A stretch of 64,000 nucleotides of DNA from Kingdonia uniflora (Eukaryota > Streptophyta > Magnoliopsida > Ranunculales > Circaeasteraceae): positions 3,658,001 to 3,722,000 of the forward strand of contig JACGCM010000560.1 of NCBI GenBank assembly GCA_014058105.1. The letters run 5' to 3'. This document shows, in pieces, positions 17,590 to 21,426 of the stretch (its first letter is position 1; each line of letters starts with the position of its first letter). The position numbers and the translations under genes were made by a program. Below the pieces are notes generated by a model. The model searched no databases. It was not told where the DNA came from and saw nothing but the letters and a program-made list of their open reading frames with translations.

Positions 17590-17999
17590 TATATCTATTA
17601 AAATAGGGTGGTGTTTTTGCCACTTTGGACAAGTCTGTCTTTATGTCTAGAGATAAAGTAGGGTTGCGATGCGATGTTGACGCCTTGAAGAACGCACAAG
17701 GAATGGTAGTTTTGGAAGTTTAAGTTTAAAAACTAAAGTCTAAAAAAAATAATCGAGTTGAAACTTCTCTTCTCCTCCCGGAGTGGAAACTACCCTTCTT
17801 CTAAAAAAAAAACTAAAAGCCAAGGCTCTCTCAGTCTCTCTAAGTTTTGCAATTCTGTCGATTGTCTCTCTCTCTGCATTTGTTGCTTCAATTTCGCCTT
17901 ATCCTCTCTCCGTCTCTCTACATTTTCTAATTTTGTCGATTGTCTCTCTCTCTACATTTTTTTACTTCAATTTCGGCTGGTTTTCATAGCTCAACCTCC

Positions 18000-18444
18000 A
18001 TTGTCTACTCTAATGAGGGAGGGGCACAAAGGTGTAATCTTGATTTTCTCCATGAAATGGAACAACGTGGTGTTCGAGCCAATTGTAACACCTACATTTG
18101 GTTACTTAAGGGATGTGGATCATTTGGAGAGGTTAAGAGCTTCGTGGAAGGATTTTAAAGTCTGGGTTTGGCTGGGAATCACTTTTTTGTGATCAACTCA
18201 TTGATGTTTATATTGGGTTTGGTGAATTTGAGTGTTGGGTTGGAGTGTTTGAAGATATGCCTCAAAAGAGAGTATATATTCTTGGAATTGTATGATTCAT
18301 GGGTTAACGAGGGGACGGTTGGGTGATCGAAGTGTGTTACATTTGTTTTTTAGGATGATTCGGGAAGGTGGCTCAGTTTCGGATCGTGATACTTTTTGCG
18401 GTGTTCTAAGGGGTTGTAATGGAGTGAGTGTTGGGGGTTTTAAG
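18000..18444 (+). pseudogene. PPR protein gene fragment, copy B
   Basis: After the CTCTCTC-rich leader the sequence reads DFLHEMEQRGVRANCNTYIW then LLKGCGSFGEVKSFVEGF. From 18292 an open frame reads FFRMIREGGSVSDRDTFCGV and LRGCNGVSVGGFK. These are PPR helix signatures. At 18445 it continues in frame into the aspartic protease fragment. Compared with copy C at 49150-49718, homology stops at GFK, so the junction with the second gene is between about 18444 and 18450. Confidence 0.75.
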
Positions 18445-18645
18445 GTGGGTTTTTGTGAATGTACTTTTTACAAGAGTAGGGCTAACATCCAAAATGATGA
18501 TGTTCAAAGTATTGCAATGTGTTATTCCTGTGAAATGGCAGTTTTATGGATTAATCAGCTTAAGCTGAACAAAACTACAAATCTTATAGTTAGCTATGTT
18601 GATGAGGTGAATATTTTGAAACTTGATTTTCTTTATTTTATCTAA
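18292..18645 (+). CDS. Chimeric open frame: PPR fragment fused to a phytepsin saposin-like (PSI) segment
   Basis: This is an uninterrupted 117-codon frame. Residues 1-51 derive from the PPR fragment (MIHGLTRGRLGDRSVLHLFF and so on). Residues from about 64 to 105 match the plant-specific insert of vacuolar aspartic proteases: MCYSCEMAVLWINQLKLNKT includes the paired cysteines and the N-glycosylation NKT expected in that swaposin domain, then IVSYVDE. A GAG|GTGAAT donor at 18607 marks the original exon end, so the last twelve residues are intron. It could be translated if transcribed, but no expression evidence is available and a functional protein is unlikely. Confidence 0.5.
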   Translation: MIHGLTRGRLGDRSVLHLFFRMIREGGSVSDRDTFCGVLRGCNGVSVGGFKVGFCECTFYKSRANIQNDDVQSIAMCYSCEMAVLWINQLKLNKTTNLIVSYVDEVNILKLDFLYFI

Positions 18646-19200
18646 CAAAGCAAAATAAAATTTGATAATGATATGTAATTTATATGACCAATTAATTACA
18701 TACTACACTCAGAATAGCCATTTATTGCCATTTTTTTTGGGTAATATTGCGCCTTTACTCGTTGTCGCCAACTCTGTTATAGACTACTTAGTCCTAAGGG
18801 AGAAATAGCCTTTGATTGCCGTAGATTATCTTCTTTGCCTATGATAGCTTTCACAATTGGCGGTGTGGTGTTTGAGCTCTCTCCACAGGAGGTATGACCA
18901 TAGTCCTTGATAATATTGAGATTCGAAGGCCATCCCATGGTTCACAAAATATTCTACCCAAATTTGGCTTGGTCATGGGTTTTTACGAACCGAGATACAA
19001 TTACTTGCGTATAGATGTTGACATTTTATCGCTTAGATGTTCTATCTTCTCAAGTTGCCACTATATTCAATGCATTGTTGTGATTCAGTACATTCCTAAG
19101 GTGCTGGGTGAGGGTACTAACACTCACTGTATTAGCAGTTTTAGGGTGATGGAAGTACCTCCTCCCCATAGTCCCATCTGGTACATTTTTGCATGTTTGT
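18445..19200 (+). pseudogene. Phytepsin-type aspartic protease gene fragment (PSI and C-terminal exons)
   Basis: Exon 1 (to 18606) carries the CYSCEMAVLWINQLKLNKT part of the plant-specific insert. Exon 2 (about 18771-18891) reads LLSPKGEIAFDC then LPMIAFTIGGVVFELSPQEV, the end of the insert returning to the protease fold. Exon 3 (about 19088-19190) reads LGEGTNTHCISSFRVMEVPP and PHSPIW, corresponding to the segment before the ILGD motif in intact enzymes; here WYIF replaces W-ILGD. The catalytic DTG and DSG exons are absent. It is cargo between the PPR and tRNA synthetase fragments. Confidence 0.8.
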
Positions 19201-19891
19201 GGGCGCTTATAGATATGAGTTGTTGATGCACTAACTCTGCTAACAAGTCATTATCACAAACGTAAAAGATAATTTCTTCCTTTGCAAAAGTTTAAACTCC
19301 TTTAATTTGAGGCTTAAACATTATGTATTGAATGGAGCTTCATGTATGATTATTATTATTATTATCAATTTAATTAATACTTAAAAAAGAAGGCATGCAA
19401 ATTGGACTGGAGAGGAAGCTCTAAGTGATCAGGTCATTTGATTGTGTATATGAGCAGTGTAGGTCATTTAGAATGTTGGGGACTGGTAATGGAGTGCTCT
19501 TATTAAAGTAAATACAGATTTTCAACTTTAGAGGAAAGTAGTTACTATTGACAGTCTAATACAAGGCATAATACCTCTTCCTTCTAAATGAATATGCTGC
19601 AGTGATGGATATATAAAAGAATTTGATCACCTGATGATTCATAGTAAATAACTACATGAGCTTATGTTTCTTTTGAGCCTGCTTCATTTTCCTCACATTT
19701 TCTTCATTAATCTCTTATGTTTTTTTATTGATGTTGTTTTTGCTGCTTTTAGTTTTGTTTTTAGTATTATGGGTTGTGCATGTTTGGGAAGTGTCTCCCG
19801 TTATAAGACTTAATGTACTGTTAATTGCATTATAAGACTCAATTGTTGGTAGTTGCCTATATGACTAATTTTGTTTTCTACTAAATTTTAG

Positions 19892-20437
19892 ATTGTGGGA
19901 CATTTCTTGGAGAAGACATGTGTCAATCCGTCCTTTATCATTAACCATCCATAGACGTTGAACCCTCTCGTAAAATGGCATAGATCAAAGCCTGAATTTA
20001 CTGAGCATTTTGAACTGTTCGTTAACAAACACGAAGTGTATTCATGTTGCTATTTACAATTTACAATTTGCATTATTTTGTTATCTTTTTTTTTTATTTT
20101 GATGTTCTAATACATATATGTGGTCTCATCCCTCCGTATTTGTTAGGTCTGCAATGCATATACTGAATTGAATGATCCCGTAGTACAACACAAATGATTT
20201 TCTGAACAACTAAAGGTACCATTCGCTGTTCTTAGATGCTACACGATATATTCCATGAGAATTTGTTTGAGTAGGTTATAATTGTGGCTTCAGGATCGAT
20301 AATCAAGTGATGACGAGGAAATGGTCTTAGATGAAACATTTCTGATTGCTCTAGAGTATGGGCTGCCCCCAACTGGTGGTTGGGGTTTGGGGATTGATCG
20401 GCTCACGATGCTTTTCACTGATTCACAGAATATCAAG
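19892..20437 (+). pseudogene. Lysyl-tRNA synthetase (class II) gene fragment, three exons
   Basis: Exon a, 19892-20035, reads IVGHFLEKTCVNPSFIINHP, a TAG stop, then [20 protein letters not shown]. Exon b, 20147-20215, reads CNAYTELNDPVVQHK and a TGA. Exon c, 20294-20437, reads [20 protein letters not shown] then [20 protein letters not shown] is class II motif 3, which binds ATP, and the segment order is that of the C-terminal catalytic domain of lysyl-tRNA synthetase. All AG acceptors and GT donors are kept, but each exon has one in-frame stop (TAG, TGA, TAA). The anticodon-binding domain and motifs 1 and 2 are missing. It is the third captured gene of the 17594-21424 Helitron. Confidence 0.88.
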
Positions 20438-21267
20438 GTTGGTTTTATTTTGCTAATAATGTTTTCCAATGCTGCATTTCTAGATGAAAAATATTATAAT
20501 TCTGTGGAGGAAACATGTCCAATGAGACATAACAATTCTTTTGCTAATCAACATTGGGTGATGTAAATCTGATAACGTGTATCATGATTTGTTACTATAC
20601 GTGTTTTTATTTGTAATATCTCTTAATATTATTAATATATTGTTGTACCCGTGGATATAATTGGTTAAGTAATAATTTTTAGAAATTTAGTTTATTGAAT
20701 TTGTTTTGGCCTAATTATGATATGATCTTTTTTATTGCTTTGGACACCAATATGAATAATGGACATAAAATTATTCGAGTTTAAGATAATTGGCAAACTG
20801 TGCTTTTGACATCTTAACTCAAATAAGTTCATTTTTTAATGTCTCAAAGATCAGAGTTTTGTTAGGCTTTAACTTTATTGGTTGCATGTCTAACATTTTA
20901 AGCCATAATGTCCCCAATTCATAATATGTTTAGACATAAGATTTTTATACTTATTTCAGGTTTATACAAACAAACCTAATGGCTAATTTTTTAGTAATCC
21001 GGTGCTTTGAGTTGTAAATGGGGTTAGTTTAGATTCAATGTTTGACATATTTCTAGATGTATAATTCTATTTGTGAACTGTGACCTTAAATTTTGTATTT
21101 TAGCACTCTTGGAAATCCCTCCAGGAATTCTCTAACTACAACCACTATTGGTCATTTTGTTCTGTAATCTAGATTTAGCATTTTTGTAGATTAAATTAGT
21201 TTGTTTTATATATTTCTAGAGCCCGGGGATGAAATAATTATATGCTTTTTTAGCATTGTTGCATATT

Positions 21268-21358
21268 GGATCTTTAACTCAAATGGTAGAGCGTCTGGGA
21301 ATGGAAATAAATTTCCAAAATTTTCAAGTGATGGTGGTTCAAACTTTCTGAGATTTGT
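21268..21358 (+). other. Degraded tRNA-like sequence near the Helitron 3' end
   Basis: GGATCTTTAACTCAAATGGT followed by AGAGCGTCT resembles a tRNA 5' half with D arm and A box, and GGTTCAAAC about 60 bases on resembles a B box. The T stem does not pair properly and the acceptor stem is imperfect, so this is at most a tRNA pseudogene or SINE remnant. Confidence 0.3.
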
Positions 21359-21426
21359 TAGTGACCGATTTACCTATCAATTATAAACTTAAACATTCGA
21401 TCGTAGCACGGGTTCATAACCTAGTA

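Follow-up and report, generated by a model that had tools for sequence, protein, structure and literature searches.

How a single mobile element comes to hold pieces of several unrelated host genes is the question raised by a stretch of 64,000 nucleotides of the Kingdonia uniflora genome (contig JACGCM010000560.1; C1300:3658001-3722000 in the genome searched, hereafter the window), in which pieces of a pentatricopeptide repeat (PPR) gene, a phytepsin gene and a lysyl-tRNA synthetase (LysRS) gene lie one after another. A sequence-only reading of the window had assigned all three to one Helitron running from 17594 to 21424. Searches of the whole assembly (1.003 Gb, 2,693 contigs) indicate that the element, here called E1, is very probably an old non-autonomous Helitron whose host gene pieces were gathered in steps. 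The proposal of a single Helitron with three gene fragments is thereby supported, though the fragments would have been captured successively rather than in one event.

E1 most likely occupies positions 17590 to 21424 of the plus strand (3,835 bp), the same two ends being found in its full-length copies. Its 5' terminal region (17590-17749) is of a type, termed E, that is common to the elements at 21425 and 48736, with 77-81% identity; the E-type 5' end pattern had 190 matches in the genome at up to 3 mismatches and none in the control. The element starts with the letters TATATCTATTAAAA, in contact with the CTAG of an upstream Helitron at 17586-17589, and its 5' end reads TATATCTATT, against TCTCTCTATT in the sisters. 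Because sister copies open with TCTCTCTATTAAAA right after A or CTAG, comparison with them places the 5' end most likely at 17590; the start proposed earlier, 17594, is 4 bp late and would require extra TATA bases. The base before 30 fetched E-type 5' ends was A in 22 cases and C in one, and the remaining 7 followed a Helitron 3' end (6 CTAG, 1 CTAA); several flanks recur, hence these are not 30 independent events.

The 3' end proposed at 21424 was confirmed, CTAG followed by T being read there. The terminal stretch (21380-21424) finishes in CCTAG, and while E1 holds 19 CTRR-T sites, GCACGGG precedes 21424 only. The 20-base 3'-end motif matched the window twice at up to 3 mismatches, compared with 0.01 matches expected in shuffles. 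The T-type 3' ends of the E1 lineage, ten with E1 included, terminate in CTAG (8), CTAA (1) or CTAT (1). When these were folded with RNA energies, a hairpin stem around CGTGC-GTA-GCACG appeared in the best fold of 7 of the 10 (L009, L010, L012, L014 and L017-L019) and was absent from those of E1, L011 and L024. No terminal inverted repeats of the Pack-MULE or CACTA kind link 17590 with 21424 among the best 25 of 45 inverted-repeat pairs, taken by length, and neither Rfam models nor tRNA genes were detected in scans of the window. As for a RepHel gene, the scanned open reading frames of the window gave a DUF223 match only (39039-39476; 24.3 bits, cut-off 24.6), a domain that we take to occur in RPA-like genes of plant Helitrons.

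Pieces of all three genes are present in E1 and share the plus-strand orientation, as the sequence-only reading had it. A CT-rich leader (17826-17975), made of a 78-bp unit repeated about twice and also found in the copies at 6518 and 48965, precedes the PPR piece (17990-18444). This piece is 89-90% identical to 49131-49580 and 6719-7163, belongs to a block that recurs in related elements, and takes three frames to read. Its Pfam support is weak: the best match in E1 is to PPR_2 (17982-18155, E 3e-4, 21.3 bits, cut-off 30) and that of the sister copy (49281-49454) reaches E 6.8e-5 (23.3 bits, cut-off 25), and a protein search using a PPR piece returned no match. The phytepsin part is collinear with prophytepsin 1QDM through three exon pieces with two introns between them (18445-19187): 18445-18606 (saposin-like insert, residues 342-380, E 4.8e-5), 18772-18891 (residues 385-421, E 4e-6, query from 18781) and 19089-19187 (residues 422-453, E 1.3e-5). 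Homology to the donor stops near 19256, and the following segment (19257-19644), which ends at a deletion junction, continues into an RNase-H-like piece in loci L024 and L025. The remainder (19645-21424) is a LysRS block with introns and the T-type 3' end, which also occurs without the PPR and phytepsin part. It holds three LysRS exon pieces and two introns (19892-20437). The first exon piece (19892-20035) matches LysRS at E 5.2e-7 (query 19955-20041) and has an in-frame stop at 19952; the second (20147-20215) has one at 20195. The third (20294-20437), presumably motif 3, matches LysRS at E 2.2e-15 and Pfam PF00152 at 3.5e-13 (query from 20303), with an in-frame stop at 20300. The claim that introns and splice sites were retained stands for 9 of the 10 splice dinucleotides read (four phytepsin, six LysRS), which are GT or AG, and fails for the acceptor of phytepsin exon 2, which is AA at 18770-18771. 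Changes in the three LysRS exon pieces, counted over up to 17 copies, fall on codon positions 1, 2 and 3 in 142, 109 and 134 cells, and the pieces look largely unconstrained. An open frame of 117 amino acids at 18292-18645 would join the PPR and phytepsin pieces in the same frame.

In the search with full-length E1, the best 40 of 840 candidates were scored, so that the copy counts are lower bounds. It yielded at least four further contiguous full-length copies at 88-90% identity to E1 (contigs C1509, C780, C929 and C489; in the C489 copy the first 88 bases occur twice), which are 94-96% alike among themselves and, together with E1, account for 5 of the 51 rows among the matches listed. Another copy, on C1954, is interrupted by about 6 kb and is missing the first 250 bases. 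Dispersed copies with the two ends of E1 thus exist: both ends, with the start corrected to 17590, recur together in the four contiguous copies and in a copy on C44, as expected of the co-mobile ends postulated from the window. Of the 51 rows, 20 start with the LysRS block, at query base 2051-2052, the C44 copy accounting for one of these, and a search with this block gave 32 rows.

The distribution of the single pieces suggests the order of their capture. The PPR piece, for which the best 40 of 45 candidates were scored, gave 45 rows genome-wide, several per locus, and has a wider distribution than the other two gene pieces of E1. Right limits of its rows cluster at query positions 375, 418, 455, 495 and 587, and the window holds two further copies, one at 48769-49583 and one at 6518-7164, the latter accompanied by a second, partial copy at 7675-7825. 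Since PPR copies exist without phytepsin or LysRS, the PPR piece appears to be the earliest capture. The 15 rows of the phytepsin piece comprise 8 in which it is joined to PPR, E1 included, and 7 on contig C2422. Two loci on this contig, L026 and L034, share 851 bp at 92%, a stretch that extends some 600 bp beyond the point of capture, whereas two more phytepsin-like loci read there are less alike; the decayed pseudogene loci of C2422 are the likely source of the phytepsin piece. At the join itself, the recipient type (E3, L027) reads TTTTAAGAT-TG and the donor type (L034) CTGAAAAT-GGG, while the chimeric joins read TTTTAAAATGGG in L024, TTTTTAAGATGGG in L009 and TTTTAAGGTGGG in E1, leaving a microhomology of about 5 bases, AARAT. 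It is unlikely that PPR, phytepsin and LysRS were adjacent in a host locus: no search row shows such adjacency, and C2422 holds none of the 45 PPR rows and none of the 32 LysRS rows. This favors the earlier proposal that the pieces were captured and are not neighboring host genes, although the failure to find intact PPR and LysRS parents weakens the argument. Within the PPR-bearing copy at 6518-8358, a stretch of about 670 bp is present twice (7026-7692 and 7685-8358, 91%).

The later history is recorded by the C44 copy (L024), which has the ends of E1, a different 5' flank and 2,643 bp of additional internal sequence, and which has lost a short stretch close to its right part. Its pieces stand in the order PPR, phytepsin, RNase-H-like, receptor-kinase-like and LysRS. 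The RNase-H-like piece matches PF13456 (RVT_3) at 22.3 bits (cut-off 21.6), and the receptor-kinase-like piece matches PF07714 at 22.1 bits (cut-off 23.1) and plant receptor kinases in PDB with a best E of 2.1e-9. E1 and L009-L013 lack bases 3049-5691 of L024 (oriented), and the junction in E1 lies at 19644/19645, between the phytepsin and LysRS pieces. The left side of the deletion is uninterrupted in L025 and its right side in 8 of 9 LysRS-block loci (L016-L023; L015 is uninformative). Judged from these loci, the short form is derived, and the window copy arose by deletion from an element with five pieces.

The surroundings of E1 are themselves made of Helitrons. E1 is the middle unit of a head-to-tail row, E0-E1-E2, and abuts both neighbors without a gap, the 3' end of E0 lying at 17570-17589 and the 5' end of E2 at 21425-21584, directly after the CTAG of E1 at 21424. 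This arrangement is typical of the lineage, as all 15 of its readable 3' ends are directly followed by a Helitron-type 5' end, recognized by BLAST in 10 cases and by eye in 5 (the 3' ends of L013 and L022 are unreadable and outside this count). Flanks of the T-type ends of E1, L009-L012, L014, L017-L019 and L024 match E- or F-type references, each at E <=6e-13. Five LysRS-block copies (L015, L016, L020, L021 and L023) terminate in a T3-like rather than a T-type 3' end, and their flanks are Helitron-like as judged by eye; the terminus of L016 is TTAG, and the flanks of L015 and L021 start with TT and that of L016 with TA instead of TC. The seven F-type flanks are 62-91% alike, compared with 94-96% for the contiguous copies, indicating separate insertions before different residents. 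Among 3' ends found by motif in the fetched DNA, 20 of 20 are followed by a Helitron-like 5' end; these were not counted, several having been fetched for their 5' end.

Helitron 5' ends as a universal target in this genome had to be rejected. The T3-type 3' end pattern had 1,017 matches in the genome and none in the control, and in a sample of 40 exact ends, among which four flank pairs are alike, T follows 38 and a Helitron-type 5' end clearly follows 5 (L087, L089, L092, L105 and L109; L089 and L092 share a flank). The flank of L082 matches at the E-value limit, and that of L103 starts with TCTATACTACT and has no match. Hence, the preference for Helitron 5' borders is strong in the E1 lineage and is no rule for the Helitrons of the genome.

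Four head-to-tail junctions of Helitrons occur in the window. At 44440-44461, a T-type 3' end (GCACGGGCTCGAAACCTAG) is followed without a gap by an F-type 5' end. An intact T3-type hairpin end (CCGTGGCGGCCACGGGTAGTACTAG) lies at 48687-48736, directly before a PPR-bearing E-type copy, and decayed relatives of it are found near 12061 and 17316. On C11, three identical T3-type 3' ends at 327201, 332055 and 336909 keep an exact spacing of 4,854 bp and look like a true tandem of one Helitron. Starts at 50485 and 52334 (TCTATATTATAAAT...), 81% alike over 95 bp, represent a further Helitron-like family. Finally, Ty3-type retrotransposon coding regions, each broken into several frames, lie at 26560-29881 and 58419-62551.

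Read in sequence, the copies point to the following history. An E-type Helitron lineage would have carried a PPR piece with varying downstream limits; in one lineage, a phytepsin piece would then have been joined to it at a short microhomology, and the PPR-phytepsin unit would subsequently have been joined, through the RNase-H-like and kinase-like pieces, to the LysRS block with its T-type 3' end, as in L024. The 2,643-bp deletion would finally have produced the window form, which is present at other places as well. We suggest that template switching or gap repair, in the course of rolling-circle synthesis or following it, created the joins, that the enzyme is supplied by a related autonomous Helitron, and that new copies enter the A-TC border of a resident 5' end, which would give rise to head-to-tail rows such as E0-E1-E2. 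Insertion may even be aimed: the transposase would target the A-TC 5' border of resident Helitrons with similar 5' ends, the site would be recreated at the left edge, and rows would grow leftward, becoming a seedbed in which the cargo of neighbors is fused. We put this forward as a tentative idea, somewhat on the doubtful side.

The main alternative for the joins is that pieces were added by bypass of the 3' end, each round of read-through taking in the genes of one flank. Such bypass has been demonstrated experimentally for Helraiser (PMC4778049), and the T3-like termini of the five LysRS-block copies suggest that ends were exchanged within the lineage. However, bypass is expected to leave the old 3' end inside the element, unless fully decayed, and no Helitron-end relic was seen at the PPR/phytepsin join, in a scan that required CTRR or GCACGGG and that an end lacking both would escape, or, by eye, at the join to the kinase-LysRS block near base 3728 of L024. 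For this reason, we prefer template switching or gap repair and consider bypass unlikely.

The limit of that scan is one of several points that weigh against the history proposed here; the flanks of the copies provide another. The four contiguous copies (L002-L005) have a common 5' flank of at least 1.4 kb at 94-96% identity, with 3' flanks that differ and show no sharing beyond about 170 bp, and L027 also has 430 bp of the shared 5' flank. In these four copies, E1 moved as the right part of a larger unit. It might be argued that the E1 form is mobile solely within a larger Helitron that begins upstream of the shared flank; yet in the window copy, in L024 and in L028 the element has the same first base next to unrelated flanks, which argues that the 5' end of E1 is a true end and makes this alternative improbable. 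That the row E0-E1-E2 is a rolling-circle concatemer rather than the product of separate insertions is more improbable still, since, despite the 3,835-bp spacing of the CTAG-T junctions and the likeness of the evenly spaced C11 ends to a real tandem, E0 resembles E1 over about the last 30 bp alone (by eye; BLAST joins 17570-17749 with 21404-21584), E2 diverges from E1 after about 150 bp, and the F-type sister flanks are less alike than the contiguous copies.

The remaining points concern the stepwise history itself. Tracing the exons to their parents succeeded for phytepsin, through the donor-like loci on C2422, and failed for the other two genes, intact PPR and LysRS parents not being found in the genome searches. 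A candidate for the LysRS gene on C600 proved to be a 150-bp piece of the LysRS block. Of two candidate PPR parents, C1332 has no open reading frame of at least 150 amino acids, and C2045 has one of 132 amino acids that extends further into the PPR gene and is not an intact gene. In the tree of the LysRS block, the grouping of E1 with the four contiguous copies is weak (0.554), and the deletion could in principle have occurred twice independently, despite the identical junction. The 3' hairpin has decayed in E1 itself, which we read as decay of a single copy because sisters with the same end keep it. Of the PPR-block changes private to E1, codon positions 1, 2 and 3 account for 6, 4 and 10; this lean toward position 3 (10 of 20) is a small number and would be unexpected under plain decay (changes private to the 48769 and 6518 copies number 9/7/6 and 12/9/5). 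The F type (window 44461) is taken for a Helitron 5' end because it starts with TC, lies directly behind a CTAG end and resembles the E type, and for 5 of the 15 flanks the assignment was made by eye. The codon-position lean, the basis of the F type and the eye-judged flanks slightly lower the odds both of the stepwise history and of aimed insertion.

E1 belongs to a known kind of element, the multi-gene Helitrons as in maize, where HelA elements carry a mean of 3 gene fragments (range 0-12) captured in steps, lose internal sequence and preferentially insert close to or within other Helitrons (Dong et al. 2011, PMC3288121). The E1 lineage shares these traits, several gene pieces per element and placement by other Helitrons among them, and differs in its genome and gene set and in that the capture stages, a donor-like locus and the deletion can be read from copies, with 15 of 15 readable 3' ends abutting a Helitron-type 5' end. 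One head-to-tail Helitron pair has been described at maize r1, with insertion at the A-T of a resident 5' end discussed (Du et al. 2008, PMC2267711). Its CTAG-TC junction resembles those seen here; however, r1 is one case, whereas in the E1 lineage the arrangement is the rule among readable ends, with four junctions in the window. As described in PMC4778049 and PMC5876387, Helraiser and Helibat likewise have TC and CTAG ends, a 3' hairpin, an A-T target and capture, but Helraiser is autonomous and transduces flanks by 3' bypass, whereas E1 is non-autonomous and no bypass relic was seen in it (for further Helitron papers, see PMC4683698 and PMC13317346). In the collection searched, we found no paper naming Helitron, pentatricopeptide and lysyl-tRNA synthetase together, which says little about the literature at large.

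To our knowledge, the collection of several genes by Helitrons has so far been inferred mainly from maize. Here, one genome shows capture stages, a donor-like locus, a microhomology join and a later deletion. That the lineage sits before other Helitrons is a simple, testable rule, which could connect arrays with the fusion of cargo, and this insertion preference is the part of the finding most worth following: if insertion is indeed aimed, the rows that it builds would explain multi-gene Helitrons.

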